Shown here: positions 2,705 to 62,582 of the stretch, in pieces
Position numbering within the stretch: position 1 is the stretch's first letter
Layout of the letters: each line of letters starts with the position of its first letter
Assembly (NCBI RefSeq): GCF_018127925.1
Contig: NZ_CP072348.1
Location: 1,091,001 to 1,155,000, forward strand
Source: Prevotella melaninogenica
GTDB lineage: Bacteria > Bacteroidota > Bacteroidia > Bacteroidales > Bacteroidaceae
DNA length: 64,000 bases
Direction of reading: 5' to 3'
Translations under genes and position numbers: made by a program
Notes under the pieces: generated by a model
Databases searched by the model: none
Seen by the model: the letters and a program-made list of their open reading frames with translations, nothing else
Told to the model about the DNA's origin: nothing

Positions 2705-2779
2705 AGGCTACCTCGGTATAGGACTAAGGGTATCTCAGTATAGGACCGAGGTACCCTTAGTCCAATACCGAGATAGCCT
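2705..2779. repeat. Long inverted repeat containing a 22-bp direct repeat
   Basis: The left arm 2706-2732 and right arm 2752-2778 are complementary at all but two positions, extended by an A-T pair at 2705/2779, with a 19-nt loop. Inside, TATAGGAC occurs at 2717 and again at 2739, exactly 22 bp apart, and a smaller alternative hairpin is possible (ACCTCGG at 2710-2716 with CCGAGGT at 2746-2752). It lies downstream of the fimbrillin-like gene and upstream of the HU-like gene, both on the minus strand. There is no T-run, so it is not a standard terminator. Confidence 0.85.
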
Positions 2780-2853
2780 ATTTTATAACACATTGATAAT
2801 CAATATATTACTAAAGCGCATAAATACCCTTATATTTGTAAATATTTTTCGTG

Positions 2854-4431
2854 CTAATTGTCACCGAAATCCGAGAATGGCTGCACTCTGTACCCAAGCT
2901 CGCTACCATTGATTGTCACGGAGACGCTGCTACTGCCGAAAGTTATGTAATATGCTTTGTTACTAGCTGATGGATGGGCACTAGACGACCAGTATTGTCC
3001 AATTCCTCCAACGCCGATTAGCATACCATAGTTATAGAGCCCCAGGGCTGGTAGATAAAAATAATCACCGATATCACTAGCAGAGGGGAGACCAGGATTA
3101 AGAGAACTGATGGTAAAGTATTGATATTGTGTACGTAGATCCACGCTGGCATTGTCAGGAATATGAGTATCTGTGAAGCCACTTATATTTGACTTCTTCT
3201 TGAACCACATTCCACCTTTGTACAGATGACCCATAGTCGTCCATAGTTTGTCTCCATCCCATCGTGGATCGCCTTTTTTGATATACCATACCATTTCATT
3301 GGCATTAGGAACTGAGATACAGGACTGTGTTGCATCAAACCTACCTGAGCCACCTCCTTCGTGATAGTAACGAAAATCACTATTATTCTGGGCATAGTTT
3401 GACGAGCTATTGCCATCGAGTGTTGGCTGACCTACACCTGCGGCTAGATTTCTTGTCCATTCGTAACCAGACCAATATTGCTGCCAAGCATCCCACATGT
3501 AGTAATGATCGCCATCATAATCTTTTATGTCAAGGTTGGCAGTCATATCGTAATAGGTGTTCTTGTCGTAATTGAAAGCACTTAGGGTCTTAGTGATAGT
3601 TCCCTCAACATTGGTGGCAATATCTTTTAAGGTGTATTTTACCGTGAGCGTATGTGTACCTGGTTTGATAAGCACATAAGCACTGTTATCTGTTACGCTG
3701 GCTACTTTCTTTATTGGGAAACCGTTAGGAGAAACGCTACTTCCGGCTGTTGTAACAACAATCTGTTTACCTGTACCTGTACCAGTAAGTTCGCCACTTG
3801 ATGGGTCAAGCGTGTAAGTTCCTGTGATGTTATTGTCGGAAGTTACTTCAACTTTTGTAAGGTAGCAATCATTTAAGGTTGCGTTTGGATTATAAGGCTG
3901 GAGAACAAGGATGGCTGCTTGGTGATCAAGCGCAAAAGAGAATGAACCACCACCTACAGTACCTGTTGCATCTGCTGTTCCGCAGTCGCCTGACACGCCA
4001 AAGTGAGCGGTGCTGTTTGGCTCTGATTGGCTTTGAGCTGCTGGAATTGTTACCTGATCATTGCTACCGTTCTTGCCAGGGTAGTAAACCTTATAGCTGG
4101 CGCTTGCAGTAAATTTACCTGGCACCTTAAACTTGAAAGAAGTAACCTTACCTGTTGGTGAATTGCTACTCTTACGCCATACGTTGTTGTCATCCTTTAC
4201 ATAAATATAGTCACCTGCTTCCCAATAGAAATTACCACTGGTGTAATCCATTGTGGTACGGGTTTTAGCCTCATCACCTGCAACAAAGGTAGTAAGGTTT
4301 TTATCGTTCTCGGTGTCAGTGCCTGTTGTGCCCTGTGCTACATCTTCATTGGCACACGATGCGAATGCCAACGCGAGTCCGCAGAAAGCGGCAAACGATA
4401 ACAGGCGTGTCTTAAATAAATTCTTTTTCAT
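2854..4431 (-). CDS. Fimbrillin-like surface lipoprotein with C-terminal fibrobacter-paralogue-like domain
   Basis: A 525-residue lipoprotein: signal peptide with lipobox FASC (Cys26), then a TRTTMDY segment and beta-rich repeats as in the fimbrillin/Mfa-like families of Bacteroidales (about residues 40-300). The C-terminal 200 residues contain GQYWSSS, AYYITFGSS and LGYRVQPF, resembling the domain of the 'Fibrobacter succinogenes major paralogous' family. It is presumably displayed at the surface as an adhesin or minor pilus component; this role is inferred. A 69-codon gene lies 55 bp upstream on the same strand, and the likely promoter of the unit is far upstream at about 5230, across a (TG)n tract. 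Confidence 0.7.
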   Translation of the reverse strand: MKKNLFKTRLLSFAAFCGLALAFASCANEDVAQGTTGTDTENDKNLTTFVAGDEAKTRTTMDYTSGNFYWEAGDYIYVKDDNNVWRKSSNSPTGKVTSFKFKVPGKFTASASYKVYYPGKNGSNDQVTIPAAQSQSEPNSTAHFGVSGDCGTADATGTVGGGSFSFALDHQAAILVLQPYNPNATLNDCYLTKVEVTSDNNITGTYTLDPSSGELTGTGTGKQIVVTTAGSSVSPNGFPIKKVASVTDNSAYVLIKPGTHTLTVKYTLKDIATNVEGTITKTLSAFNYDKNTYYDMTANLDIKDYDGDHYYMWDAWQQYWSGYEWTRNLAAGVGQPTLDGNSSSNYAQNNSDFRYYHEGGGSGRFDATQSCISVPNANEMVWYIKKGDPRWDGDKLWTTMGHLYKGGMWFKKKSNISGFTDTHIPDNASVDLRTQYQYFTISSLNPGLPSASDIGDYFYLPALGLYNYGMLIGVGGIGQYWSSSAHPSASNKAYYITFGSSSVSVTINGSELGYRVQPFSDFGDN

Positions 4432-4486
4432 TGTCTGTCTTTTCTTTTTTTGATTCTGTTTTCTTTTCTGTAAATAACTCTCTTGC

Positions 4487-4696
4487 TTAATCTTCCCATG
4501 GAGAAGAAGTACCCTTGCTACTCTCTTCTAAATCTTCCCATTCTGCTACAGCTTTAGCACTTGATGGACCAGAAGCATGATGTCCAGGATTGTGCTGGCT
4601 AGGGAAAGAGGTAGCCATAAGATTAGTTTCTTCACTCACGTGTGCTATCTGGCACTGTGGCACGAGATAGACTTTTCTTTCTTTTGTTTTCATCAT
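4487..4696 (-). CDS. Small Prevotella-type protein of unknown function
   Basis: A 69-residue protein starting at tandem ATGs (4696 or 4693). I do not recognise a named family. The N-terminus carries KVYLVPQCQ, a pattern I associate with many tiny Prevotella/Bacteroides proteins. The middle is rich in His, Pro, Ser and Gly (NPGHHASGPSS) and the tail is acidic with two Trp-Glu-Asp motifs. There is no membrane segment or lipobox. It precedes the fimbrillin-like lipoprotein by 55 bp in the same direction, suggesting co-transcription. It could be a secreted peptide or a precursor peptide; nothing here shows modification genes. Confidence 0.5.
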   Translation of the reverse strand: MMKTKERKVYLVPQCQIAHVSEETNLMATSFPSQHNPGHHASGPSSAKAVAEWEDLEESSKGTSSPWED

Positions 4697-4759
4697 CTTT
4701 TTGATTTGATTAAAATAGTTGTTATCTACTCTCTATGTGGCTTTATTGCTCACCTTTTA

Positions 4760-5206
<447 letters not shown>

Positions 5207-5225
5207 TGCTAAGTTATTCACGCTG

Positions 5226-5233
5226 CAAAGGTA
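5226..5233 (-). promoter_or_regulatory. Bacteroidota -7 box reading toward the fimbrillin-like operon
   Basis: The minus strand reads TACCTTTGCA, matching the TAnnTTTG consensus. No clear -33 TTTG is seen 20 bp upstream. Transcription from here would give a leader of about 520 nt that includes the TG tract. Confidence 0.55.
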
Positions 5234-5411
5234 AAAAGAAAATATGGAATAAAAGAATAAACAGAGATAAAATAGCCTTCATAACTTAGGGAATTTCAGT
5301 TAATTCCCTACTTACAGCGTACGTTATCAGGCAGAACGCTGTGATGGTTGTCCGTTGAGAGGCTCATGTTTTAAGGCAAGAGGAAACAGAATTATAGAAG
5401 TAAACCACCAA

Positions 5412-5501
5412 CTACAGCACTATAAACAAAAGGCACGGGACTAACAATCCTGCACAATAGGCACCTAACAATAAAAGAATAGTAAATACAATAATACTCA
5501 T
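5412..5501 (-). CDS. Candidate 29-residue hydrophobic membrane peptide
   Basis: An ATG at 5499-5501 opens a 29-codon frame ending at TAG 5412-5414. Its product is almost entirely Leu, Ile, Val, Phe, Cys and Gly, long enough for one transmembrane helix. A perfect TACCTTTG box lies 20 bp upstream at 5521-5528 on the same strand, giving a very short leader, as is common in this window. The Shine-Dalgarno match is poor, which is normal in Bacteroidota. I do not recognise it; it could be a small membrane protein or a type I toxin-like peptide. Otherwise the surrounding 5240-5700 region is empty. Confidence 0.4.
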   Translation of the reverse strand: MSIIVFTILLLLGAYCAGLLVPCLLFIVL

Positions 5502-5520
5502 TGAGATTTAATCTTGAATG

Positions 5521-5528
5521 CAAAGGTA
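5521..5528 (-). promoter_or_regulatory. -7 box (TACCTTTG) ahead of the 29-codon frame
   Basis: Exact TAnnTTTG match on the minus strand, 20 bp before the ATG of the short hydrophobic frame. No -33 element is evident. Confidence 0.5.
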
Positions 5529-5702
5529 AGCAAATACTCCGAAAGTAGATAGCCTCTTTTAAGAAATTAAGTTGACCTTATCTAAAAACAAAGAAACACC
5601 ATCGACAAATAGAAGCACATTTATCATTCTAAGGATCTAACATTCTCAAACATGCGAGCGCAATTACTGCCCAAAATATGTCTGAACCTCATCTATAATT
5701 AT

Positions 5703-5710
5703 TAACTTTG
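5703..5710 (+). promoter_or_regulatory. -7 box TAACTTTG of the sulfatase gene
   Basis: TAACTTTG fits TAnnTTTG and ends 18 bp before the ATG at 5729. A possible TTG start at 5708 lies inside this box and would precede the transcription start, so it is not used. Confidence 0.65.
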
Positions 5711-5728
5711 CCAAAAAATAAGCAAACG

Positions 5729-7801
5729 ATGGACAAAAGAACAAATGTAATTACCAAGAATCCTATTAATTTCATTGGAACACGATTTTTAAAACTGTAT
5801 CTACTTATTGGATTTATCCTAAGAATTATCTTAATGTGGAATGTCCCCGAAGATTCTTCTTTCTCTTTCTGGGAGATAATCAGATTCTTAAGTGTTGGCT
5901 TCGTAACAGATATTTGTATGGCAATTTTGCTTGCCTTACCATTACAAATTATAAACCTTGGGCTAAATGAAGCTAAATATCATCGTGTCACAGGATGGAT
6001 CATTGAACTTCTACTAACTATTGCCTTTGCCTACGTATTATTCTTCCACACCATCTTCCACGAATATGGAGGCGGCGCACCAAAGATTGCACGAATATTC
6101 CTCGGATGGAAACTATTCAGTTTCTCCATACGCTTTTTCATTCCAAGAACAAGAGAAGCATGGCGTAAGATCTCCCTCTATATAACTTGGGCTGTATATG
6201 TTTTCTTATTACTTTGCGTCACAGCAGGAGAATACATCTTCTGGGGAGAGTTTGGCGTAAGATATAATTTCATTGCAGTAGACTATCTCGTCTACACTCA
6301 CGAAGTTATTGGGAACATCATGGAGTCTTATTCTATTGTTCCGTTGATTGGCATTACATTACTCTTAACAGCTGCAATTATCTTCCTTCAATCGCGACAT
6401 TACAAGCTAAAGGTTACTCATCTTTACAATGCGAAGAAGTTTCTTATACACCTTTCTATATATATGGTCTTAGCAATAAGCTCATATTTTATCTTACAAG
6501 GCACCCATGCTCTACAAAGTAACAATCAATACGTTACTCAACTTGAACAAAACGGAGCCTGCGACTTTGTCATTGCTTTCCAGAGTAACATGTTAGAGTA
6601 TGATAAGTTCTATACTATGTTACCCAAACAACAATGTGTGTCTCAGTATCGTCAATTAAGTGGACTTAACAAGGAGGGAAAAAAGGCGATTGGAGAGTTC
6701 CTTGCTTCACAACGCCCTAACATCGTCTTAATAACAGTAGAAAGCCTAAGTGCTGATTTCCTTACGCGATATGGAAATAAAGAGAACCTTACCCCACAAC
6801 TTGACAAGCTCATGCAAGGGAGTATTGTCTTTGACAGTCTATACGCAGCAGGAAACAGAACAGTTAGAGGATTAGAAGCATTATCTCTTTGCATTCCACC
6901 GAGTGCAGGAGAAAGCATCATCAAGCGAAAGGCTAACCGAATGGGGAACTTATCAATAGGTCGTATCCTTTCTCACTTGGGGTACAAATCGCAATTCATC
7001 TATGGCGGAGATAGTTATTTCGATAACATGGGCGACTTCTTCAGTCATAATGGCTACGAGGTAATAGACCGAAAGGACATACCGAACAATCAAGTAACAT
7101 TCGCAAACATTTGGGGTGTCTGTGATGAAGATATCTTCAACAAGAGCTTACAAGTATTCGATAAGGACTATCAGTCGAAACTTCCTTTCTTCGCACAGAT
7201 TATGACCACGAGCAACCATCGCCCTTACACCTATCCCAGTGGCAGAATTAAAGTAGACGGTGACCCTAACACAAGAGAAGCCGCAGTAAAATATACAGAC
7301 TATGCAATCGGTAAATTCATTAATGACGCCCGAAAGAAAGCATGGTTCCAGAATACCGTATTCGTAGTTATTGCTGATCACTGTGCATCCAGTGCCGGGA
7401 AAACATCACTTCCTATAGACCGCTACCATATTCCATGCCTCATCTATGCGCCAGCTATTCTCCAACCAAGAAAGATTGAAACTATATGCTCGCAGATTGA
7501 TGTCATGCCTACCCTACTTTCTCTCCTCAAGTTACGTTGCACTGTAAGTTTCACAGGACAAGACATCCTCGCACCAACCTATCATCCTCGTGCATTCATG
7601 GCAACTTACCAAGACCTTGGGTATCTTGAAGGTAATCGACTAACTGTTTTATCGCCAGTCCGCAATATACGACAATACATCGTTCGTCCATTACACGATG
7701 GTACATTTGAAGAGCAACCTACAAAGCAAATGAATCAAGAACTCGTTCGCAAGGCGCAGGCTTACTACCAATACACAAACTTATACGTGAAAGCGCAATA
7801 G
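5729..7801 (+). CDS. LTA synthase-like membrane sulfatase / phosphoglycerol transferase family protein
   Basis: A 690-residue protein with about five N-terminal membrane segments (to roughly residue 260) followed by a periplasmic alkaline-phosphatase/sulfatase fold. Visible landmarks are NIVLITVES with the metal-binding Glu (about 336), GNRTVRGLEA with the nucleophile Thr (about 377), FFAQIMTTSNHRPY, and VVIADHCASS with metal ligands (about 549). LtaS-type enzymes move phosphoglycerol or phosphoethanolamine from lipids to glycans. In Gram-negatives the acceptor is usually an envelope glycan or LPS, which cannot be assigned here. The ATG at 5729 is chosen because the TTG at 5708 sits in the promoter box. 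Monocistronic, with a hairpin at 7852. Confidence 0.85.
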   Translation: MDKRTNVITKNPINFIGTRFLKLYLLIGFILRIILMWNVPEDSSFSFWEIIRFLSVGFVTDICMAILLALPLQIINLGLNEAKYHRVTGWIIELLLTIAFAYVLFFHTIFHEYGGGAPKIARIFLGWKLFSFSIRFFIPRTREAWRKISLYITWAVYVFLLLCVTAGEYIFWGEFGVRYNFIAVDYLVYTHEVIGNIMESYSIVPLIGITLLLTAAIIFLQSRHYKLKVTHLYNAKKFLIHLSIYMVLAISSYFILQGTHALQSNNQYVTQLEQNGACDFVIAFQSNMLEYDKFYTMLPKQQCVSQYRQLSGLNKEGKKAIGEFLASQRPNIVLITVESLSADFLTRYGNKENLTPQLDKLMQGSIVFDSLYAAGNRTVRGLEALSLCIPPSAGESIIKRKANRMGNLSIGRILSHLGYKSQFIYGGDSYFDNMGDFFSHNGYEVIDRKDIPNNQVTFANIWGVCDEDIFNKSLQVFDKDYQSKLPFFAQIMTTSNHRPYTYPSGRIKVDGDPNTREAAVKYTDYAIGKFINDARKKAWFQNTVFVVIADHCASSAGKTSLPIDRYHIPCLIYAPAILQPRKIETICSQIDVMPTLLSLLKLRCTVSFTGQDILAPTYHPRAFMATYQDLGYLEGNRLTVLSPVRNIRQYIVRPLHDGTFEEQPTKQMNQELVRKAQAYYQYTNLYVKAQ

Positions 7802-7851
7802 CTTAACCAAAGTAGTGAACTTGTAACATGCTTACAAGCCCCTCTGAAACA

Positions 7852-7892
7852 GAAAGTCGCCCCCAATATGGAGGCGACTTTCAAGTATTTTA
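7852..7892 (+). terminator. Hairpin after the sulfatase gene
   Basis: GAAAGTCGCC at 7852-7861 pairs perfectly with GGCGACTTTC at 7873-7882, followed by a T-rich stretch. Confidence 0.8.
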
Positions 7893-7908
7893 ATCTTAAA
7901 GGGATTGC

Positions 7909-8066
7909 TTATGCTTCAACCTTACCATTGCCAAATGGAGCGATGGTGCGTGGTCCCTGGTCTTTGGGTTCGCGGCGGTCATCTTACCAAACTCTTTCTC
8001 GTAGCATACTACATTGTCCTGCAAAGCTGCAAGGAGACGCAATGCGTGCTCAGGAGCAATAAATAC
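7909..8066 (-). pseudogene. Truncated and frameshifted copy of the DUF3467 gene
   Basis: Read on the minus strand, 8066 to about 7983 encodes VFIAPEHALRLLAALQDN and continues as in the intact DUF3467 protein (39656-39985). A single-base loss near 7980 shifts the frame. After correction the tail reads RTIAPFGNGKVEA and ends at a stop at 7909-7911, matching the intact RTIAPFGPGKVDA. Codons 1-58 are missing: the leader is joined directly to the codon for Val59 at a short ATT-type microhomology. The promoter is preserved upstream. No other part of the gene is found nearby. Confidence 0.85.
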
Positions 8067-8080
8067 TTTCTTCTTTTACG

Positions 8081-8112: not shown

Positions 8113-8331
8113 TCTAACTACAAAAGTTTTACTCTAAACCTATTAGATTTCCACCTCAAAATAACACTACTAACAGAACTTCCTTTAGGTTCTTCCATTA
8201 AAGTCAAATCAACCAATAGAGCCTCATGACATTTTGTTTTATTATTGATATCTTTCCGTCTTCTGCGAGGCCACTTATTCCCATATCAACCAATACTTGT
8301 AAACTATTTTCATACAACTCAAAACCAATAC

Positions 8332-8441
8332 ATGCTCTTTTGGTTGCTAAAAGACGCCTAATTGACTTACAAAAGATGCCCTTTAGAGGTCTTACTAACG
8401 CCCTTTTGAAGTCCAATTAAGCACCTTTTCTTACACAGGAT
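8332..8441 (+). repeat. 22-bp array, family 1, copy A
   Basis: Five units begin at 8332, 8354, 8376, 8398 and 8420. Units start ATGCTC, ACGCCT, ATGCCC, ACGCCC and AGCACC. The fourth contains CCCTTTTGAAGTCCAATT, the most conserved stretch of the family. Flanks are shared with copies B and C (TTGTAAACTATTTTCA upstream; TAACTAACTGATTT downstream, shared with B), so the array sits in a larger dispersed element. No reading frame covers it. Confidence 0.9.
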
Positions 8442-8586
8442 CATAACTAACTGATTTACTATTGGTTACAAACTTATCTTTTACATATATTTTTGCCGTT
8501 ATTTGTAGATGTTTTATTCGAGATTATGTAATAATTTTTCAAAATAATTATCTGCAACACTTTGTTTTTACAGCATTTTTATTTAT

Positions 8587-9504
8587 GAACTTATCTTGAC
8601 TTTTGTTTCTTTTTCACTTTCTTCATCAGAATAACAATAAATGCTATATAATTCCATGCTTGCCAACTGGTCAAAGTAACATCAAATCTGTTCAACAGAC
8701 TTCTGTATGAATCCAACCACGCATTTGTTCTTTCTATGCTGTACCTTTCTTTATACAGTATATCGTCAAACAAATAGCAATCTTGCTCACCCCTTGCTCT
8801 ATAATTAAATGCTACATTTGCAAACACACCCATTCTTAGGCACATGTGTCTAAACTCTTTTGCATCGAATCCCGCATCAGCATTGAGAAATAATCCATCA
8901 GTAGAAATATCAGACTTTGTGAGTTGTGAGAATACTTCTTTAACCACTTCTGAAATATTGTACAAATCATTGTGAGAACCTGCAACTGGAGTGGATATGG
9001 CGAGTGGTATTCCCTGACGGTCAGTTACATAAATAGCATTTGTAGTCTTGCTCTTCTTGCGTCCCTGATAGCTCTGACAATCTCCACCACGTAATGCTGT
9101 TGTATGGCTGCCATCCAAATCTATACTTGACATATCCAAGAAAGATTTATAACGGCCTAGAAGTATTGTCCACACTTTTTGCCATTCTCCTTTCTTACAC
9201 CATTTGCGAAAATGTCCGTATACGGTTTTGTAATGAAGAACCTTTGCTGTGAAGAACGATGAAACTGGAAGCATATACCATTGGCAACCAGTCTTAAGCT
9301 TATAAAGAATGCATTGAATTACCTCAGACAGGCAGCTTTGGCAAATATATCCACGTTTTGCTACTGATAAATGAGGTAGAATTTCATTTTTTATTGTATC
9401 TTTGTCCAGTACTTTGTACATGAGAGGTATTTAAAGCTTGGTTCACTAATACAAAGATAAGAATTCCTCTCTATTTTAACAAAATAAAAAGTCAAGACGA
9501 CTTC
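8587..9504 (-). mobile_element. IS5-type insertion sequence, copy 1 (918 bp)
   Basis: The limits come from comparing with the copy at 40327-41244: identity starts at GAACTTATCTTGAC and ends at GTCAAGACGACTTC. The ends form imperfect terminal inverted repeats of about 20 bp sharing TCTTGACTTTT. The two copies differ at only about seven positions. No matching target duplication flanks this copy, which fits a deletion or recombination at the IS. The right end abuts a SusC gene lacking its 5' half. Confidence 0.9.
8591..9421 (-). CDS. IS5-family DDE transposase
   Basis: A single 276-residue frame. The N-terminal part (1-90) resembles the helix-turn-helix region of IS5-type transposases with GCQWYMLP. 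The DDE residues are visible: Asp103 in IDLDGSHT, Asp182 in LNADAGFD and Glu230 in SIERTNAWL. The C-terminus is Lys-rich. A TATCTTTG box at 9452-9459 inside the element is its probable promoter. Compared with copy 2 it differs at a few residues (AISTPV against ALSTLV, FDAKEF against FDTKEF, RARGEQD against RAGGGQD). No frameshift is seen, so it may be active. Confidence 0.9.
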   Translation of the reverse strand: MYKVLDKDTIKNEILPHLSVAKRGYICQSCLSEVIQCILYKLKTGCQWYMLPVSSFFTAKVLHYKTVYGHFRKWCKKGEWQKVWTILLGRYKSFLDMSSIDLDGSHTTALRGGDCQSYQGRKKSKTTNAIYVTDRQGIPLAISTPVAGSHNDLYNISEVVKEVFSQLTKSDISTDGLFLNADAGFDAKEFRHMCLRMGVFANVAFNYRARGEQDCYLFDDILYKERYSIERTNAWLDSYRSLLNRFDVTLTSWQAWNYIAFIVILMKKVKKKQKSR

Positions 9505-12866: not shown

Positions 12867-12993
12867 AGGTAATTAGCAAGACGCTCTGTTTCCTATTAAT
12901 GTTATTAGGCATACATTATGTGTTTTAATCGTTTGTTCGTGCCTTGCCATAGGTTATGATGTTTTTTATATACCATCTTCAAATCTTGTGTTG

Positions 12994-13041
12994 ATGCTCC
13001 GCACATATGGTGCTCATGCTCCGCACCAATGGTGCTAAGCA
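12994..13041. repeat. 22-bp array with GCACCAATGGTGC-type palindromes
   Basis: ATGCTCCGCAC starts at 12994 and again at 13016, exactly 22 bp apart. Each unit has an inverted core (GCAC..GGTGC; in unit 2 GCACCAATGGTGC). It lies in the 433-bp gap between two operons. The same core occurs in the array at 41705. The rest of the gap holds the promoter at 13119-13149. Confidence 0.85.
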
Positions 13042-17661: not shown

Positions 17662-17744
17662 TTCCGTCTCCTGTTTCTGCCCGTTAGTTGCAGAAGACAG
17701 GTAGAACTGTTCGAAAGTATTTTGAAGATGACCTACAAACGTTT

Positions 17745-17832
17745 AAAAAGTCTCTAAGCTTCTTTGAAAAGCTCTTAAGCTTTCTTTAAAAAGCTCCTAA
17801 GCTTTTTGTGAAAAGCTCTTAAGCTTTTTGGG
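17745..17832. repeat. 22-bp array with AAAAGCT..AGCTTTT palindromes
   Basis: Four units align on TAAGCTT with the G at 17758, 17779, 17801 and 17823, so spacings are 21, 22 and 22 bp. Each unit is a quasi-palindrome with arms AAAAGCT and AGCTTTT. It fills much of the 310-bp gap between the methyltransferase gene and mdh; the rest is the mdh terminator and a GTCAAC repeat. Confidence 0.9.
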
Positions 17833-21107: not shown

Positions 21108-21535
21108 TCCATTAAATGAATAGATTGTAAATAGAATAAAGACTTATACACTTGAGGGTATGACTATATCCAATTAGATGGTCTTACAATGGGAAATAAA
21201 CTACAAGATAAAATGCAGAAAATGAAAATAGATGCTATTTTCTATTCGTTTTTATAAACAGGTTATTCCCTTGTTAATCAGTGTTTGTAAACTATTTTCA
21301 CTCCGCTCTAAAACAATACATGCTCTTTTGGCTTCTAAAAGATGCCTAATTGGCTTGTAAAAGGTGCTCTTTACGACTCTTAGTAACGCCCTTTTGAAGT
21401 CCAATTAGGCACCTTTTCTTGATTCACTTTGTAACTAATTGATTTCCTTTGAGTTGTAATCTTGCTTCTTATATGTGTTTTTACCATTATTTATAGAGGT
21501 TTTACCCGAAAGTGTGTAATGATTTTTCAAAGCCG
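21108..21535 (+). repeat. Larger dispersed element carrying family-1 array copy B
   Basis: Besides the array, 21108-21240 (ATTAAATGAATAGA, then AAGACTTAT, then TTAGATGGTCTTRCA) matches the reverse complement of about 49085-49205, next to copy C. The right flank 21430-21530 matches the right flank of copy A (TAACTAAYTGATTT, TGTAATRATTTTTCAAA). The element is therefore about 400 bp and recurs in both orientations. The whole 21054-21800 gap holds no credible gene. Confidence 0.75.
21320..21429 (+). repeat. 22-bp array, family 1, copy B
   Basis: Unit starts are 21320, 21342, 21364, 21386 and 21408, again in exact 22-bp register. CCCTTTTGAAGTCCAATTA is identical to copy A, while the first three units differ at many positions. 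Confidence 0.9.
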
Positions 21536-36967: not shown

Positions 36968-39226
36968 ATGACACCAAAGAAATTATGGTTGACTTTGGCA
37001 GCGGTCATTCTCGGATCGTTTGCCGTTTTATGCTTCTATGGCGTTGAGATTTTTAGAGAGATGCCACCTTTCCCTAACAAGATAGTAACAGAGAGTGGTG
37101 AAATGTTGTTTGAAGGACAAGACATAAAGGATGGACAGAACGTTTGGCAGTCTATTGGAGGTCAGACAGTAGGTAGTGTTTGGGGCCATGGCGCATACGT
37201 AGCTCCTGATTGGACAGCCGACTATTTGCATCGTGAGTCAGAATTGATGTTAGCCGAATTAGCTAAGAAAGATGGTAAGGTGTATAACCAGTTGGACGAA
37301 GCAGACAAGGCTAAGTACAAGGTATTGTTGCAAGAAGAGCTTCGTAAGAATACCTATGATGCACAGACTGGTGTTATCACCTTTAGTAAGATGCGTGCTA
37401 AAGTGGCTAAGCAATTGCATAATTATTATGCCAAACTATTCTTAAACGACCCATCTATGGCTAAGTTGCGCAATGCGTATGCTATGCGCGAAAAATCTGT
37501 AGAAGCAGTAGGCGGTCTTTCTGCTGAGAAGCGTTTTGATAAGATGGATGCTTTCTTTGCATGGTCAAGCTGGGTGTGTGTGACCAATAGACCTAATAGC
37601 GACGTTAGTTATACCAATAACTGGCCACATGACCCTGTCATAGGCAATGTTGCCCCTGCTTCGTTACATCTTTGGTCAGGCTTCAGTGTGTTAATGTTAC
37701 TCTTCTGTGTAGGAATTTTAGTTTACTATTATGCTCAGCATAAAGAAGAACATGTGTCAAAGGTGCCAGAATCAGATCCGATGAGAGATCTTAAGCCTAC
37801 AGCATCGATGCGTGCCGTACTGAAATACATTTGGGTCGTAGGTGCATTAATGCTGGTCCAGATGCTTTCCGGTGTGATAACAGCCCATTACGGTGTAGAG
37901 GGAGATGCTTTCTTTGGGCTACCTATACAAAACATTTTCCCTTATGCCGTATCGCGTAGCTGGCATGTCCAGTTAGCTATTCTTTGGATTGCAACCTCAT
38001 GGTTGGCTACAGGTTTATATATAGCACCAGCAGTTTCGGGAGTTGAACCAAAATATCAAGCCTTAGGTGTAAACATTCTCTTTGGAGCATTGGTTTTCGT
38101 AGTTGCAGGTTCGTTAGCTGGTCAATGGTTCGGTGTAATGCAAAAACTTGGTTTGGTAGAGAACTTCTGGTTTGGACATCAAGGATACGAGTATGTTGAG
38201 TTGGGACGTCTATGGCAGATACTATTGCTTACGGGCTTAGTTCTTTGGTTGTTCTTAATGATTCGCGCACTTATTCCTGCACTTAAGCGAAAGGACGAAA
38301 ACCGCCATTTACTTACTCTCTTTGTTATTGCCTCATTAGCTATCGCATTCTTCTATGCAGCAGGTTTGATGTATGGACGCCAAACTCATATGGCTGTTGC
38401 TGAGTACTGGCGTTGGTGGGTAGTTCACCTTTGGGTTGAAGGCTTCTTTGAGGTATTTGCTACGGTGGTTGCATCGTTCTTGTTCTGTCGTTTGGGACTA
38501 CTTAAGATTAAGAGTGCCACAGTTTCTGTGTTGTTCTCTACTATCGTCTTTCTTGCAGGTGGTATTTTAGGAACATTCCATCACTTGTATTTCAGTGCAA
38601 CCCCAACAGCAGTATTAGCACTTGGAGCTACATTCAGTGCAATGGAGCTTGTTCCGCTCGTACTGATAGGAATAGAAGCATACCATAATTATCAGCTGAG
38701 CCGTTCTGCAGCTTGGATAAAATCCTATAAGTGGCCGATATATTGCTTCATTGCAATGTGTTTTTGGAACTTCTTGGGTGCTGGTATCTTTGGTTTCTCC
38801 ATTAATCCGCCAATCGCCTTATATTATTTGCAGGGACTGAATACCACTGCCGTTCATGGTCATGCAGCTCTGTTCGGAGTCTATGGTATCTTGGGAATAG
38901 GCTTGATGCTATTTGTCTTGCGCGGTCTTTATCCAAATAACGAATGGAACGATAAGCTTATAGGATCTGCTTTCTGGTGTATAAACATTGGTTTGCTGCT
39001 AATGACAGTGGTAAGTATCTTGCCAATTGGTATCCTACAAGCCTACGAAAGCATAACCAACGCTTACTGGTCGGCAAGATCGGCTGAGTTCATGCAACAA
39101 GATCTCATGCAAACATTAAGATGGCTGCGTATACCTGGAGACACGTTTGTAGCTTTGGGTGAAGTTCTATTTGTCTTGTTTGTCATCGGTTTACAGTTTG
39201 GCTGGTCGAAGAAAGGCAGACGCTAA
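36968..39226 (+). CDS. norB: Quinol-dependent nitric oxide reductase (qNOR)
   Basis: A 752-residue, about 14-helix membrane protein. The first helix is followed by a long periplasmic domain (about residues 30-220), which replaces the NorC cytochrome and marks the quinol-oxidising single-subunit form. Heme and FeB ligands appear in SWHVQLAILW, HLWVEGFFEV, GTFHHLYF and HGHAALFG. It reduces NO to N2O with electrons from quinol, here presumably to detoxify NO in an anaerobe. Monocistronic, behind two palindromic sites and a leader hairpin and followed by a terminator. Confidence 0.93.
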   Translation: MTPKKLWLTLAAVILGSFAVLCFYGVEIFREMPPFPNKIVTESGEMLFEGQDIKDGQNVWQSIGGQTVGSVWGHGAYVAPDWTADYLHRESELMLAELAKKDGKVYNQLDEADKAKYKVLLQEELRKNTYDAQTGVITFSKMRAKVAKQLHNYYAKLFLNDPSMAKLRNAYAMREKSVEAVGGLSAEKRFDKMDAFFAWSSWVCVTNRPNSDVSYTNNWPHDPVIGNVAPASLHLWSGFSVLMLLFCVGILVYYYAQHKEEHVSKVPESDPMRDLKPTASMRAVLKYIWVVGALMLVQMLSGVITAHYGVEGDAFFGLPIQNIFPYAVSRSWHVQLAILWIATSWLATGLYIAPAVSGVEPKYQALGVNILFGALVFVVAGSLAGQWFGVMQKLGLVENFWFGHQGYEYVELGRLWQILLLTGLVLWLFLMIRALIPALKRKDENRHLLTLFVIASLAIAFFYAAGLMYGRQTHMAVAEYWRWWVVHLWVEGFFEVFATVVASFLFCRLGLLKIKSATVSVLFSTIVFLAGGILGTFHHLYFSATPTAVLALGATFSAMELVPLVLIGIEAYHNYQLSRSAAWIKSYKWPIYCFIAMCFWNFLGAGIFGFSINPPIALYYLQGLNTTAVHGHAALFGVYGILGIGLMLFVLRGLYPNNEWNDKLIGSAFWCINIGLLLMTVVSILPIGILQAYESITNAYWSARSAEFMQQDLMQTLRWLRIPGDTFVALGEVLFVLFVIGLQFGWSKKGRR

Positions 39227-39426: not shown

Positions 39427-39492
39427 GATGCTGTGCGTTTCATATACTGAAACTGTGTGTTTCAAGCCTTGAAACTTTCTTGAGACTGTATT
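39427..39492. repeat. 22-bp array with GTTTCA..TGAAAC palindromes
   Basis: GTTTCA starts at 39437 and 39459; TGAAACT at 39448 and 39470: both 22 bp apart. Units are palindromic (GTTTCATATACTGAAAC and GTTTCAAGCCTTGAAAC) and a decayed third unit follows (TTTCTTGAGACTG). It lies in the gap between the NO reductase and DUF3467 genes, which is otherwise featureless apart from the two flanking signals. Confidence 0.85.
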
Positions 39493-39583: not shown

Positions 39584-39615
39584 TTTGGACAAATGACTTT
39601 TATGTATTATCTTTG
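39584..39615 (+). promoter_or_regulatory. Promoter of the DUF3467 gene
   Basis: TTTG (39584-39587), 20-bp spacer, TATCTTTG (39608-39615). The same promoter is duplicated at 8081-8112 ahead of the pseudogene. Confidence 0.8.
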
Positions 39616-39655
39616 CATAAGAGAAATAAAGTATTATCTAAATCATATTAACAAA

Positions 39656-39985
39656 ATGGACAATAATAATCAGAATCAAGAGGGACAGCAGTTGCAGATT
39701 GATCTCTCACCAGAAATCGCTAAAGGTGTTTATACAAACTTCCAGATAATCTCTCATTCAAGTTCAGAGTTTGTACTTGATTTTGCTACACTTCTTCCAG
39801 GTGTACCAAAGGCAACAGTGACAAGCCGTGTTATTATTGCTCCTGAGCACGCATTGCGTCTTCTTGCAGCTTTGCAGGATAATGTAGTTCGTTATGAGAA
39901 AGAGTTTGGTAAGATTGACCGTCATGAGCCAGAGCAGGAGCCACGTACGATAGCTCCATTCGGTCCTGGTAAGGTTGATGCATAA
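39656..39985 (+). CDS. DUF3467 family protein
   Basis: A 109-residue soluble protein. The Gln/Asn-rich start is followed by the family core: LSPEIAKGVYTNFQIISHSSSEF in part (IAKGVYTNFQIISHS), DFATLLPG, and IAPEHALRLLAALQDNVVRYE. DUF3467 proteins are short and common in Bacteroidota; their function is unknown to me. The ATG at 39656 is used because an in-frame ATG at 39593 lies upstream of the -7 box. A truncated, frameshifted second copy exists at 7909-8066. Confidence 0.9.
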   Translation: MDNNNQNQEGQQLQIDLSPEIAKGVYTNFQIISHSSSEFVLDFATLLPGVPKATVTSRVIIAPEHALRLLAALQDNVVRYEKEFGKIDRHEPEQEPRTIAPFGPGKVDA

Positions 39986-41630: not shown

Positions 41631-41704
41631 AATGATTAACCTTTAGTAATATGGTTCTTTCGGACCAATAAATCGTTCGAAGAATTAGGACTTATTATAG
41701 CGTG

Positions 41705-41778
41705 CTAAGCCTCCGCACCAATGGTGTTAGGCGTCCGCACCATACGTGCGGGGCGTTCGCACGTACGTTAGAACAGGT
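41705..41778. repeat. 22-bp array with CCGCAC..GTGCGG palindromes
   Basis: CCGCAC starts at 41713 and 41735 and TCGCAC at 41757, exactly 22 bp apart. Units contain inverted cores (GCACCAATGGTG, CCGCACCATACGTGCGG, GCACGTACGT). It shares the CTCCGCACCAATGGTG core with the array at 12994. Confidence 0.9.
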
Positions 41779-48829: not shown

Positions 48830-49205
48830 ACAGAAAATAAGGCTAAAAACGAGCATTAACAACACCTTTGTAAGTTGTTCGCTATCAAGCCTTTGCAAAA
48901 CTGCATCTCAAAAGGTGCTTAATTGGACTTCAAAAGGGCGTTAATAAGACCTCAAGAGGGCATCTATTGCAAGCCTATTAGGCATCTTTAAGAAGACAAA
49001 AGAGCATGTATTGGTTTTGAGTCACATGAAAATAGTTTACAAAAACCTATGATGTAGGAATCAAGTTATTTGTAGAAAACAGATAGACATAGTATCAAAT
49101 CGTTTTTATCTTTTAGCTTATCACTCTCTGCAAGACCATCTAATATGGGATAGTAATACCCTGCATATAGATAAGTCTTTCTTCTATTCCCATTCTATTC
49201 ATTTA
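48830..49205 (-). repeat. Larger dispersed element carrying family-1 array copy C
   Basis: In reverse orientation 49085-49205 matches 21108-21240, and 49020-49075 matches the TTGTAAACTATTTTCA flank of copies A and B. On the other side, 48825-48910 matches 55835-55925 beside copy D (CAAAATAA, AACACCT, GTAAGT, GCTATCAA, TTGCA in the same order). It fills most of the 48491-49361 gap; no gene is seen. Confidence 0.7.
48898..49007 (-). repeat. 22-bp array, family 1, copy C (inverted)
   Basis: On the minus strand units start at 49007, 48985, 48963, 48941 and 48919, in exact 22-bp register. CCCTTTTGAAGTCCAATTAA is identical to copy A. Confidence 0.9.
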
Positions 49206-51947: not shown

Positions 51948-52097
51948 CATCTATCTTAAACCGATTTATACATGAGATAAAAGATGCTTTTCACACCTTA
52001 TCGTATTTGAAAAATATGCTTTAAAAGTGGTCAAACAACATTTTAGAAAGGACTAACATAAGTTCCAATCCTACCCTAACAACAAACTCCATTCATT

Positions 52098-52185
52098 TAT
52101 TTTCATGAACAAAAGAAATTATTTTCATGAAAAGAAATATTTATTTTCATGATAAAAAATATTTTTCTTCATGAAAATAATTTGG
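52098..52185. repeat. 22-bp array with TTTTCATGA palindromes
   Basis: The C of TTTCATGA falls at 52104, 52126 and 52148, and the C of TTCATGA at 52170: exact 22-bp spacing over four units. The core TTTTCATGAAAA is a perfect palindrome in unit 2. It is very AT-rich and unrelated in sequence to the other arrays. It lies between the cassette and the 3' end of priA. Confidence 0.9.
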
Positions 52186-52221
52186 GGAATAAGACATTAG
52201 AAAAGAGAAAAGTAACTAATA

Positions 52222-54726: not shown

Positions 54727-54750
54727 TAATATATTACTAAACTTCTGTTC

Positions 54751-55913: not shown

Positions 55914-56023
55914 GAGATAGATTTTTAAAGGTGCTTAACAAGGCTTCAAAAGGGCGTTAATAAGAACCCAAAAGGGCATCTCTTGCAAGCCAATTGGGCG
56001 TTAAATGCAAGCCATTTGATGGT
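55914..56023 (-). repeat. 22-bp array, family 1, copy D (inverted)
   Basis: On the minus strand units start at 56023, 56001, 55979, 55957 and 55935, in exact 22-bp register. This is the most diverged copy, yet the spacing has not changed; ACGCCCTTTTGAAG is intact and unit 2 has GCCCAATTGGC. Confidence 0.88.
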
Positions 56024-57276: not shown

Positions 57277-57354
57277 TATTATTTTGTTTGTTCTTTACTA
57301 AAAGAGATGCTGTGATATAGTGTTTTATGAGTAGATACAGTATCAAGACTATCT

Positions 57355-57385
57355 ATCAACTTGTCAACCCGTAAGCTCGTCTACG
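57355..57385. repeat. GTCAAC-type repeat after gldM
   Basis: ATCAAC at 57355 and GTCAAC at 57363 (8 bp apart), followed by a CTCGTCTACGCATTAACTATCA stretch resembling CTCGTCAACTATC after mdh at 17960. Both clusters lie just downstream of minus-strand stop codons. Confidence 0.6.
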
Positions 57386-57394
57386 CATTAACTA

Positions 57395-58984: not shown

Positions 58985-59048
58985 TAATTCTATTATTTGT
59001 AGTGGGAAGACAGCTGAAAACAGACGTCTTCCCTACCATATTTCATCA

Positions 59049-59846
59049 TTACAAGCTTTCAGGGGTAGACTGCTGAGGGGCAACATTAGGTGCTGCCACA
59101 CGCATATTAACAGTCATTGCCTCAATCATTCGAGCATAGATACTATTGAGTTGCTCTATCTGCTGTGCCATCTTACGGGTCTGGTCATTAATCTGATCGA
59201 TTGTACCAATCTGCTGGCTGGCACTCTTAAGTTGCATCTCATAAACCTTAGCAATACCTGTGAGAGTACGATTGAGGTTCTCCATCTCTTCGCTATCACG
59301 TGTCAAACGCTGACTCTGGTCGTTCACTTTACCCAACATCTCTGTCAGATTCTGCAATGCAGCAACATAGTTTGTTTGTGCTTCTACCATCTCTGGTGTC
59401 TGCTGTTGTGCATCTGCGATAGCTTTACTCTGCTGACCAACAACAGCTGCAGCGATATCATTAGCTGAAGGCATTGCCTCTTGAACACTCTGTGCAATAT
59501 TCTCTGCAGCAGCATATTGTGCCTGTGGTGCAACTGCGGGGTGTTCAACAGTATTTTCGTTGTCATCAAGAAGTTCCTCAGTAACATGTGTTGGGAGATC
59601 ACGACCATCATCTGTCTTATCAAATGGACGGTCGAACGCCGAGAGGAAGAACACGATAACCTCAGTACCCATACCGAAGTAAAGCATAATATTAGCTCCT
59701 GGCAAGTGGGTCAACTTAAACAAAGCTCCAAGAATAACCACTGAAGCACCCCAACTATAACCATAGTTTAGAAACGTTTGTCCAGGAACACTATCCATCC
59801 ACTTCTGCAGATGGTATATAAGATTGTATTTACTGTACTGTGTCAT
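59049..59846 (-). CDS. gldL: Type IX secretion motor protein GldL/PorL
   Basis: A 265-residue inner membrane protein with two membrane helices near the N-terminus (about 25-75, including FLNYGYSWGASVVILGALFKL in part, and MLYFGMGTEVIVFFLSAFD in part, which carries the conserved membrane Glu of GldL). The cytoplasmic remainder is Gln/Ala-rich and helical. It forms the motor with GldM. Its ATG directly follows the gldK stop (TAAATG), so the two are translationally coupled. Confidence 0.94.
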   Translation of the reverse strand: MTQYSKYNLIYHLQKWMDSVPGQTFLNYGYSWGASVVILGALFKLTHLPGANIMLYFGMGTEVIVFFLSAFDRPFDKTDDGRDLPTHVTEELLDDNENTVEHPAVAPQAQYAAAENIAQSVQEAMPSANDIAAAVVGQQSKAIADAQQQTPEMVEAQTNYVAALQNLTEMLGKVNDQSQRLTRDSEEMENLNRTLTGIAKVYEMQLKSASQQIGTIDQINDQTRKMAQQIEQLNSIYARMIEAMTVNMRVAAPNVAPQQSTPESL

Positions 59847-61328
59847 TTATCTTCTCTTTTTCTTACTGCTTTTCTTATTCTCTTTTGCTGCCTCACTTGA
59901 AGAACTTGCAAGACTACGAACACAACGGAAACCGATGTAGCTACGTGGTTGGTTCTGATACTCCCAAGTACGCCAAGCACTGCGGATATAGCTCTCTGGA
60001 TCCTTCCAGCTACCACCACGAACACTCTTCTTCTTCAAGCGATATGGGTCTTCTTTGGCTGCTTTATAGTCCAACTGTGGATTGAGGTCATTCATCGCAT
60101 CAACACCCGCCTCTGTATAAATGGTACTTGTCCACTCGGCAACATTACCTGCCATATCATAGAGACCATTAGAGTTTGCGCCATAGATACCAACCTTACT
60201 TGTTATCAAATTACCGTCTTTGGTGTAGTTTCCGCGGTCTGGCTTAAAGTTAGCATAGAAACAACCGTTACCATTCTTGACGTTTTGATTGTCCCAAGGG
60301 AACTCATCTTGATTCTTTCCACGAGCCGCAAACTCCCACTCAGCCTCTGTAGGAAGACGATAACGCTGTACATAGCGCGCCTCTTTTCCCAAGCCTTTAA
60401 GCAGATACTCCGTACGCCAAGCACAGAAAGCATTAGCCTGCTCCCATGTTACACCTACTACAGGATAGTTGTTATAAGTTGGATTACTAAAGTAATTACG
60501 GAGATAAATCTCGTTGTCTGAGTTGCGGAAGTCATTCACCCAACAAGTTGTATCTGGATAGATATTAACGATATAGGTATTGAGGAAGTCCCAAGGACCT
60601 GTCAACGGACGATTGATGGTCTCGCTATGAATAACGCCGTTTTCATCGATATAAGCTGTATCCTTTGATATCATCACCACCTCATTAGGGTCGACTGTAA
60701 TATCAGTATTCAAATTACGCTCCTGTGGATTCAAACGGTTACGACGAAGAGCGGCTGATGTGTAATCGTAAATCTCATAACGATAGTTCAACTGTCTGCC
60801 ATCAATACTCTTCTCACCTGTTACTGGATTAGTTACATAAAGGCTCTCGAAAGCACGCTGCTCATCCTCATTAGGCTTACGAGGAAGTCGCTTGTTCCAA
60901 TCCAAATGTGGTGTGACAGGATCGCCATTCTTATCTTCTGTAATCATATAGCTTTCATCACCACCATATGCAGGGTCTGCCAAACGGGTACGGATAATAG
61001 AATCACGAACCCACTCTACAAACTGCTTATACTCGGAATTGGTTACCTCTGTTTCATCCATCCAGAATCCATCAACAGAGATGTCCTTTACAGGTGTCTT
61101 CTTACCCCATAGGGAGTCCTGCTTTTCCAAACCCATTCTTAACCAGCCACGCTTGACAAGTGTCATGCCGTAAGGTGCTGGTTCGCGAAAGGCACGACCT
61201 CCACCAACGCCAGTGACCTCACCGCCACGACCTGACGAAGCGGTTGACTTACCAGCAAAACAGCCTGTCAATGTTCCCAAGACGAGTGCACCAAGACAAA
61301 TGGCAACTATACTTTTCTTCATTTTCAT
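59847..61328 (-). CDS. gldK: Type IX secretion lipoprotein GldK/PorK
   Basis: A 493-residue lipoprotein with lipobox LTGC (Cys23 from the first Met) and an FGE-sulfatase (SUMF1-like) fold: FWMDETEVTNSEYKQF, VVGVTWEQANAFCAWR, YRLPTEAEWEFAARG, GLYDMAGNVAEWTS, VRGGSW and YIGFRCVR. GldK members use this fold structurally. With PorN it forms the outer-membrane-associated ring. It lies 9 bp after porP. The C-terminus is Lys/Ser-rich. Confidence 0.95.
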   Translation of the reverse strand: MKMKKSIVAICLGALVLGTLTGCFAGKSTASSGRGGEVTGVGGGRAFREPAPYGMTLVKRGWLRMGLEKQDSLWGKKTPVKDISVDGFWMDETEVTNSEYKQFVEWVRDSIIRTRLADPAYGGDESYMITEDKNGDPVTPHLDWNKRLPRKPNEDEQRAFESLYVTNPVTGEKSIDGRQLNYRYEIYDYTSAALRRNRLNPQERNLNTDITVDPNEVVMISKDTAYIDENGVIHSETINRPLTGPWDFLNTYIVNIYPDTTCWVNDFRNSDNEIYLRNYFSNPTYNNYPVVGVTWEQANAFCAWRTEYLLKGLGKEARYVQRYRLPTEAEWEFAARGKNQDEFPWDNQNVKNGNGCFYANFKPDRGNYTKDGNLITSKVGIYGANSNGLYDMAGNVAEWTSTIYTEAGVDAMNDLNPQLDYKAAKEDPYRLKKKSVRGGSWKDPESYIRSAWRTWEYQNQPRSYIGFRCVRSLASSSSEAAKENKKSSKKKRR

Positions 61329-61337
61329 TATATCTTT

Positions 61338-62276
61338 CTATAGAAATCTTACGCTTTTATGTTTGTTCCTACCTTTCTTCTGCAGGTTTATATCGGTTTG
61401 ATAGCTGACAAACAGCCCATGACTACCATTCTTGAAAGCTGCTGTACCCGTGTACATCTCATAGCTATAACCCAAGTTAATTCCGTGGAATGTTCCACCA
61501 ATCATGGCTGTCACTGAGTTTGTTGGACTATAAGAGACTCCTCCATAAAGTACTTTCTTCTCGTGCGTGTAGACTAATCGAGCGGTGATATCAGCCCGAT
61601 AGTTTACGCCATCATACCGTGCCAAGACAGAAGTCGTTATAGTAAGAAACGGATTTCGTAATTTAATATTGTATCCACCCGTTAAATAATATGTTCGATT
61701 TATCTGTAATTCATTGGTCTCTCCCAAATCTACTAAGAGCGCATTAAGGTGCTGAACAGATGCGCCAACATACCAGTTCTTATGCGTATAATAAACTCCA
61801 ACTCCCAAATCGAGTCCGTGACCGTTGACTTCTCCTTGTGCTAAAGCTGGGTCGCTTGACTCTTCTGGGTCTAACTTAGAGCCATCTAATTTTTCAAAAA
61901 GCATACCCACCTGAACACCTGCTGATAGCATTCCGCCCCAAAGGTCCTTACGAAAGGCGTATTGTCCTGCAACACGCTGATGAACAAAGGCTCCTAACTT
62001 ATCATTCAAAATAGAAACGCCCACACCATGATATTGCTTCATGAAATAGATAGGCATGTCTGCTCCTACGTAGAAAGTATTCGGGTTGTGTTCGTAGCCT
62101 GCAAAGTCGAGGGCGTAAGCACCCACAACATTCAGCTTATTGTCCTTTCCTACTGTGGCTGGATTAAACGACGACTCCATCGCCCAGTAGTGACTATAAG
62201 ACGGATCATACTGTGCCTTGACAGAATTTCCTATCAGACAAGCAAGTGAAAATATGAGTATTAAACGTTTAAACAC
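61338..62276 (-). CDS. porP: PorP/SprF-type outer membrane protein of the T9SS
   Basis: A 312-residue protein with signal peptide (to about residue 21, VKAQ). The opening YDPSYSHYWAMESSFNPATVG, then MPIYFMKQYHGVGVSILNDK, fits the PorP/SprF family (TIGR03519-type). PorP is an outer membrane barrel required for T9SS function and surface attachment of some cargo. It is the first gene of the porP-gldKLMN operon. No clear promoter box was found; a small hairpin AGAGCGT/ACGCTCT lies at about 62333-62361. Confidence 0.92.
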   Translation of the reverse strand: MFKRLILIFSLACLIGNSVKAQYDPSYSHYWAMESSFNPATVGKDNKLNVVGAYALDFAGYEHNPNTFYVGADMPIYFMKQYHGVGVSILNDKLGAFVHQRVAGQYAFRKDLWGGMLSAGVQVGMLFEKLDGSKLDPEESSDPALAQGEVNGHGLDLGVGVYYTHKNWYVGASVQHLNALLVDLGETNELQINRTYYLTGGYNIKLRNPFLTITTSVLARYDGVNYRADITARLVYTHEKKVLYGGVSYSPTNSVTAMIGGTFHGINLGYSYEMYTGTAAFKNGSHGLFVSYQTDINLQKKGRNKHKSVRFL

Positions 62277-62472
62277 GATTCTATAACGTATGTCTGGTTG
62301 AATTATTGCTTTCTACACGTATAAATATTAAAGAGCGTATGAATACAGAAAGGAAACGCTCTGATAAGAAAGGACTGCCACACCTCTACCACTCTACCCC
62401 TTACTTGTCAGGAGAAAGAATGTATACATAAGTGATGATTGTAAATAAATTTCACGTGTCAGATTTTTAATG

Positions 62473-62582
62473 ATGCTCTTTTAGCTTTGAAAAGACGCCC
62501 AATTGGCTTGCAAAAGATGCCCTTTGGAAGTCCAACTAACGCCCTTTTGAAGTCCAAATAAGCACCTCTTACAAACCAAGAT
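62473..62582 (+). repeat. 22-bp array, family 1, copy E
   Basis: Unit starts are 62473, 62495, 62517, 62539 and 62561, in exact 22-bp register. CGCCCTTTTGAAGTCCAA matches copies A to C, and ATAACTAACTGA downstream matches copy A. The remaining 62277-62820 bases show no gene. Confidence 0.9.

Follow-up and report, generated by a model that had tools for sequence, protein, structure and literature searches.

We describe tandem arrays of short palindromes in the intergenic DNA of Prevotella melaninogenica, analysed in a window of 64,000 nucleotides (contig NZ_CP072348.1 of assembly GCF_018127925.1, positions 1,091,001 to 1,155,000) and in the genome from which it was taken (two contigs, 3.36 Mb). 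The arrays belong to families of unlike sequence that share a repeat period of 22 bp. Many of them lie beside genes for HU-HIG proteins, and both the palindrome and the period follow the type of protein encoded. We consider it probable that the array families serve HU-HIG paralogues as binding arrays and that the packing of these proteins along the DNA sets the period.

The 22 bp period

Eleven arrays with a common spacing of 22 bp had been listed in the window by an initial annotation. Ten of them were detected at lag 22 when the intergenic DNA was scanned at a looser threshold. The eleventh (39427-39492), which was missed by the lag scans and by Tandem Repeats Finder (TRF), consists of two exact palindromes: the window has GTTTCA-N5-TGAAAC at 39437 and 39459 and nowhere else, a spacing of exactly 22 bp. 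Like the lag scan, TRF bore out the window arrays. A strict, gapless lag scan over periods 10-60 recovered period-22 arrays at six places, besides one TG run. The TG run aside, the only other array periods were 15 and 27, in one C/T-rich stretch, and 44, or twice 22. The same scan of five block-shuffled copies of the window yielded zero arrays. The initial annotation had counted at least six sequence types, and six were found again, namely family 1 (five arrays), the GCAC family (two arrays) and four further types with one array each. Its placement of the arrays between genes held as well: ten were intergenic according to gene calls, which throughout this work came from a greedy open reading frame (ORF) heuristic and not from annotation, and the eleventh lies between the ORFs 36968-39226 and 39593-39985.

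The genome sample comprised 464 kb (the window and 20 sampled stretches), in which intergenic DNA was delimited by the gene calls. Intergenic identity at lag 22 was 0.3058, against a median over lags of 0.2774 and a top value of 0.2846 in 20 block shuffles. There were 49 arrays at period 22 and at most 7 at any other period between 15 and 40. When periods 8-100 were scanned, 44 (20 arrays) and 66 (9), both multiples of 22, and also 14 (16) and 77 (35) stood out; the last equals 7x11 and may stem from half-unit similarity within family 1. The lag-22 peak was absent from coding DNA. It was present in all four of the other genomes of the genus that were sampled, with z scores of 8.2 in G003 (7 arrays), 6.0 in G016 (4 arrays), 5.3 in G017 (9 arrays) and, at its weakest, 3.2 in G010 (5 arrays). 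A genome of another family, G038, gave a z score of 0.7 and no arrays in 340 kb. The initial annotation had staked its claim on a genome-wide peak without rival periods of equal frequency. In the comparison that was run 22 bp dominated the intergenic DNA, and the shared period of the arrays is confirmed.

Arrays beside HU-HIG genes

The HU-HIG proteins were found because the genes adjoining rare arrays were inspected. All four array-linked proteins submitted scored 57 to 86 bits against PF18291 (cut-off 26.2). The genome contains 65 matches to PF18291, every one of them over the cut-off. Three are set apart by sequence, L124 and L125 being ordinary HU and L126 a longer HU-like protein, and the remaining 62 are counted here as HU-HIG genes. 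A profile built from 17 HU-HIG proteins matched 27 distinct PDB sequences at E <=0.01, all named HU, IHF, TF1 or histone-like/histone-family, with 5eka as the best match (E 4.2e-8). PF14848 was considered as a second HU family; its 28 matches were read, by their places, as HU-HIG genes again.

Association was counted with a single detector for 22 or 23 bp arrays within 450 bp of the 62 HU-HIG genes and of 302 other called genes, at least two of which (L047:7546 and L040:5266) are apparently spurious ORFs on the strand opposite HU-HIG genes. With either side and all families included, 51/62 HU-HIG genes and 65/302 control genes had an array. Exclusion of three high-copy families changed these counts to 49/62 and 15/302, and nine of the 15 control genes neighbour HU-linked arrays by their place. 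With the same families excluded, upstream arrays were found at 39/62 HU-HIG genes and 2/302 control genes (Fisher 9e-34, a value that treats paralogues copied with their flanks as independent, which they are not). Both of these control genes stand directly behind a HU-linked TTCGCGAA array. The ordinary HU genes L124 and L125 and the longer L126 had no such array. The hint at HU-like proteins in the initial annotation was right in kind, since most low-copy arrays adjoin HU-HIG genes.

HU-HIG loci of 20 other genomes provided a weaker test than the window's genome, as it covered HU-HIG loci only, several of them near contig ends, and some matches were AT-rich. A 22 or 23 bp array was present within 450 bp, in either direction, at 30 of these 60 loci (upstream at 26), and the count rose to 38 when periods 20 and 21 were included. 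G003 accounted for 21 of the loci, and 18 of its loci had a 22 or 23 bp array on either side.

Palindrome and period follow the type of protein

About fourteen unlike palindrome types, distinguished by eye, follow the protein subfamilies. The array motif of MAFF-type HU-HIG genes is CTAAGTATGATACTTAG or CTCGGTATAGGACCGAG, and one or other of these two sub-types stands upstream of all nine such genes. MAFY-type genes have the motif CACGAAAGTATATTTCGTG, and the motifs CTTCATTATATGAAG, TACCCAGCTGCTGGGTA and GGGTGTTAAACACCC go with the MISFKVVET, MIEFKV and MVEFEV types, respectively. A relative in Bacteroides sp. Marseille-P3684, 56% identical, has an upstream 22 bp CTAAGTATAATACTTAG array, which is almost the MAFF motif of Prevotella. 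In B. pyogenes (75% identical, two records) the upstream 22 bp array has a different core and partly the same GGGTACC linker. No such array was found upstream of L250, a relative from a Prevotella metagenome-assembled genome.

The period changes with the protein as well. All 11 arrays of the MxxFKV type had a period of 23 bp, and all 40 arrays of the MAFF, MAFY, MANKP and MKIR/K types, one of which is a family C array behind L111, had a period of 22 bp. Unclassified HU-HIG proteins had three arrays at 22 bp, one at 16 and one at 28. When 45 less redundant HU-HIG proteins were placed on a tree, 9 changes of period label were required, against a shuffled mean of 15.2 and with none of 200 shuffles as low, a count that retains some unsure labels of 20, 21, 23 and 24 bp resting on AT-rich upstream DNA. 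Seven of the eight 23 bp rows formed one branch (100/99 support); the eighth, L158, is among the labels resting on AT-rich DNA.

Unlike families have one layout in common, a palindrome that recurs at 22 bp intervals. Thirty HU-linked upstream regions were chosen for a dyad scan, which overlooks many degenerate units. Where several dyads were found, they were mostly 11 or 22 bp apart, and 11.5 bp in the clearest 23 bp arrays; the linker therefore often carries a second dyad. Family 1 half-sites (CTTTTG-N5-CAAAAG) gave five matches in the sample, all with a spacer of 5 when spacers 2-9 were tried. The same layout was found in G010 (3/3 at spacer 5) and in a G017 variant of the family, GTTTTG-N5-YAAAAC (15/15).

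Dispersed arrays and their candidate partners

The array families differ in copy number. Family B (GCAC-N5-GTGC) is the largest, with 235 pattern pairs in the genome and none for the reversed-pattern control. Family 1 has at least 40 and perhaps about 180 copies (184 first-look candidates), and family C, searched as TTCATGAA-N14-TTCATGAA, has 26 exact pairs here and none in 39 other genomes searched. Among 36 dispersed arrays, located at least 1.2 kb from any HU-HIG gene, 18 matched a HU-linked array of their own genome: 11 of family 1 (matching L092), six of family C (L072) and one of family D (L105 and L113). Three of five dispersed arrays in G003 likewise matched HU-linked arrays of that genome, scoring 39, 49 and 57 where shuffles reached at most 15-17. 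The 20-kb stretches with these arrays yielded no HU-HIG gene. One of the three, of D type, scored higher (60) against the L113 array of the window's genome.

Family C offers a comparison between species. L072 and its homologue in G017, L127, have an upstream TTCATGAA and an upstream TACACGTA array, respectively, and share one tree branch (99/97) with three G003 proteins. At the family C spacing TACRYGTA occurred as 102 pairs in G017, one in G003 and none here, with 0 to 2 per genome for the reversed control. A looser family C pattern, tried around the HU-HIG genes, also caught TTCGCGAA arrays, and its rows were left out. For this family only, the dispersed motif and the array of the linked gene differ together between two species. 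Close relatives of L072 in G148 and G326 retain the TTCATGAA array. For family 1, the linked copy is found some 460 bp upstream of L092, and the L092 relatives in G148 and G326 likewise have copies upstream.

Arrays of the window and alternative explanations

The arrays of the window are collected in Table 1 together with the gene pair that flanks the first of them. That array ends 73 bp upstream of the start of the HU-HIG gene (locus L108).

Table 1. Arrays and flanking genes in the window (positions are those of the window)
Feature	Position	Strand	Remarks
HU-HIG protein, 154 aa	2164..2628	-	PF18291, E 3.1e-16; proposed reader of the 2702-2779 array
22 bp array, palindrome type CTCGGTATAGGACCGAG	2702..2779	.	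Lag scan; between lipoprotein-like and HU-HIG genes
Surface-lipoprotein-like gene, variable-type C-terminus	2854..4431	-	C-terminus of YWSSSA...GYR type; upstream of the 2702-2779 array
Family 1 array, 5 x 22 bp	8332..8441	+	Within dispersed element of ~295 bp, 8248-8543
GCAC-N5-GTGC family (B) array	12980..13041	.	Retained in G148 and G326
AAAAGCT...AGCTTTT (D) array	17742..17830	.	Matches arrays adjoining HU-HIG genes L105 and L113 elsewhere in the genome
Family 1 array	21320..21429	+	
Two GTTTCA-N5-TGAAAC palindromes, 22 bp apart	39437..39475	.	Pattern search
GCAC family (B) array	41702..41778	.	
Family 1 array	48894..49007	-	In G148, G162 and G326; missing from G140
TTTTCATGAAAA (C) array	52097..52185	.	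Matches array upstream of HU-HIG gene L072
Family 1 array	55914..56023	-	
Family 1 array	62461..62582	+	

An alternative that we regard as unlikely is that the arrays are mobile repeats, either REP-like (repetitive extragenic palindromes) or resembling miniature inverted-repeat transposable elements (MITEs) such as BrickBuilt, in which case the 22 bp units would come from transposition and the proximity to HU-HIG genes would reflect shared mobile loci. Family 1 arrays do lie inside the dispersed element of about 295 bp, which has sharp ends when set against its many copies in G326. The window segment 1940-5440, which carries the HU-HIG gene, the lipoprotein-like gene and the array between them, is different and much shorter in G148 (874 bp) and G162 (265 bp). 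HU-HIG numbers spread about tenfold among close relatives, with 62 genes here, six in G148, which is 95% identical over the longest compared piece, and three in G326 (other HU-type genes excluded), and HU-linked arrays have often been copied together with their flanks among paralogous loci. However, nine full-length copies of the family 1 element had no evident terminal inverted repeat, no flank conservation could be seen by eye around the B and C arrays (17 and 7 copies), and mobility does not account for a period that is common to unlike families and tracks the protein type.

Comparison with related genomes showed arrays at fixed places. The family 1 array at 48894-49007 is conserved in the three genomes given in Table 1 despite diverged flanks in G326, and the changes in the half-sites of the family B array at 12980-13041 in G148 and G326 resemble those within the family. 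The intergenic site 51948-52221 is occupied by a family C array in this genome and in G326, and by a family 1 array in G148 and G162. The segment 16756-17870, with a methyltransferase-like gene (named by eye) and the D array, corresponds to 15 bp in G326 and 114 bp in G148. Replication or recombination that copies 22 bp units, one of two mechanisms put forward in the initial annotation, does not explain why the period tracks the protein clade, and it fails on the varied half-sites of family B at fixed spacing and on the positional stability of arrays among related species. Some arrays, such as L049:5647 with its near-identical units, have probably gained units by slippage.

A further possibility, to which we give rather little credence, is that the palindromes act as RNA or single-stranded DNA hairpins, for instance as terminators or mRNA 3′ ends, rather than as protein sites. 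Arrays between divergent genes were rarer than expected (4 observed, 10.3 expected, binomial p 0.03), those between convergent genes were somewhat commoner (12 observed, 8.0 expected, p 0.12), and many HU-linked arrays lie between genes of the same direction, all of which would suit hairpins. On the other hand, the inner half-site bases of family B, examined alone in this respect, are variable but show no significant covariation (21 of 54 symmetric, against an expectation of 16.7; p 0.09), a pattern that fits protein half-sites better than hairpins. All 45 family B unit pairs within 140 bp are spaced 22 or 44 bp apart, and hairpins do not need such a spacing. A search of the window with Rfam at gathering scores returned only tRNAs.

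Weighing the proposed HU-HIG binding arrays

Several observations count against the arrays being HU-HIG binding sites. Eleven of the 62 HU-HIG genes fell below all array thresholds; nine of these have degenerate palindromes by eye, and L082 and L092 have none close by. Paralogues amplified with their flanks inflate the association counts, and the number of independent cases is nearer to the approximately fourteen motif types recognised by eye than to 62. The position of several arrays, behind the HU-HIG gene, would also allow them to serve the gene that comes next. Outside G003, only 12 of 39 loci in nineteen genomes have a 22 or 23 bp array on either side. The four 21 bp rows are unclustered on the tree (4 changes, shuffled mean 3.9). 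Half of the dispersed sample, 18 of 36 arrays, was unmatched (17 of family B and one weak other), and dispersed arrays matched fetched HU-linked arrays in only three of nine cases in G017 and in none of three in G016. Given the copy number of family 1, its link to L092 may be that of a chance neighbour. None of the arrays beside the 62 HU-HIG genes matches family B, and the stretch fetched around each gene contained no B pair, so that in this genome not every array family has an HU-HIG partner. Lastly, G011 (86% complete) has 15 family B pattern pairs, and only three HU-type proteins and no HU-HIG gene were found in it.

The partnerless family B would also suit operators of unrelated regulators, one per family, with HU-HIG proteins merely assisting by bending, an explanation that we find very improbable since it accounts neither for one ruler across families nor for its change with HU-HIG type. 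The other mechanism suggested in the initial annotation, two helical turns set by a multimeric DNA-binding protein, is favoured by the way in which period and motif follow the protein clade; binding itself is what we infer, and the GCAC family fits less well for want of a partner.

Under the reading that we prefer, with HU-HIG proteins bound to the arrays, an HU-HIG dimer would read the palindrome, and half-sites would differ between paralogues. Neighbouring dimers would pack side by side at a distance that is a property of the clade and sets the ruler, 22 bp in general, 23 bp in the MxxFKV type and possibly 21 bp in a few relatives that do not cluster on the tree. HU and IHF introduce two kinks into DNA at a distance of nine base pairs, which is also the distance between the two GCAC cores of the family B palindrome. 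Since most paralogues here have an array beside their own gene, autoregulation would be the likeliest local role, as the position of the arrays suggests. Core paralogues with many dispersed sites, of which the best candidate is the HU-wHTH protein L072 with family C and a tentative one L092 with family 1, may be sequence-specific nucleoid-associated proteins; such a role is suggested by the dispersion of the arrays and by their shortage between divergent genes.

More tentatively, these parts may form a private-address system, a proposal that we advance as possible and with clearly less confidence than the binding arrays themselves. Dozens of HU paralogues would each read their own palindromes and polymerise along the arrays with a clade-specific ruler of 22 or 23 (perhaps 21) bp; core members would organise the nucleoid, and local ones would mark or control surface-protein loci diversified by retroelements. 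Textbooks present HU proteins as the model of non-specific DNA packing. If HU-HIG proteins do bind these arrays, a general nucleoid protein has diversified into dozens of sequence-specific factors. The genome would then supply many natural pairs of protein and site from which the recognition of sequence by HU proteins could be learned, and part of the intergenic repeats of Prevotella would be explained. The binding reading also predicts which palindrome belongs to which protein.

Neighbouring genes and other features of the window

Many HU-HIG genes (loci L062-L123, and in the window behind 2854-4431) follow a surface-lipoprotein-like gene with a hypervariable C-terminus, YWSSSA...GFRVGGFE. 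The window's copy had no Pfam match at 1e-3. In this genome 28 loci match the strict variable C-terminus pattern. Eighteen of these loci are of equal length; in them C occupies position 3 in 18/18 for two variable codons and in 10 to 16/18 for the other variable codons. At positions 1 and 2 the variable codons show three or four different letters. Averaged over all codons, entropy differs less between the positions (0.92, 0.78, 0.70). Such a pattern of variable codons resembles the signature of diversity-generating retroelements. The association of arrays with HU-HIG genes was also found where a lipoprotein-like gene is lacking, at L072, L110, L113 and in the Bacteroides case, where the ORF before the Marseille-P3684 array has no variable-type C-terminus. 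The array therefore seems tied to the HU-HIG gene rather than to the retroelement.

Motifs of the TTTG/TTG-TANNTTTG type, which we take to be the promoter motif, lie within 350 bp of 6 of the 65 PF18291 genes (L072, L092, L098, L110, L113 and the ordinary HU gene L125). That most lipoprotein-linked HU-HIG genes are without one suggests that they may be co-transcribed with the upstream gene.

Two further features were noted in the window. The stretch 8586-9504 is a probable insertion sequence, recognised by eye (a 276-aa ORF), and G162 has similar stretches at several places. The other feature, at 5067-5113 inside the ORF 4760-5221, is a perfect (TG)23.5 run and a possible phase-variation tract.

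Comparison with known systems

The HU-HIG clade was reportedly defined by Burroughs et al. in 2017, with an expansion in Bacteroidetes and a suggested role in recognising invading DNA. The array-linked proteins described here belong to this family (PF18291). Among the matches listed in a search of the open-access literature we found no report of private palindromic arrays, a clade-specific ruler or dispersed cognate arrays, and these three features would be what is new relative to the known family.

The BrickBuilt MITE of P. gingivalis (PMC4596501) resembles family 1 in having tandem repeats within dispersed elements, in a related genus. The 22 bp repeats that the initial annotation mentioned for P. 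gingivalis could not be confirmed there, as the strings "22 bp" and "23 bp" are absent from the main text of that article. The family 1 element differs from BrickBuilt in being without obvious terminal inverted repeats.

In plasmid iterons and ParB/parS arrays, one protein has tandem sites that follow each other at about two helical turns. The neighbours of the arrays inspected here included no replication or partition gene. Unlike iterons and parS, the arrays described here are both dispersed on the chromosome and linked to genes, and they combine palindromic units with HU-type proteins.

IHF and phage TF1, the HU relatives with sequence preference, belong to the same superfamily by profile and are dimers that bend DNA. 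In contrast to these, the proteins described here occur as up to dozens of paralogues per genome, many of them with tandem palindromic arrays at 22-23 bp.

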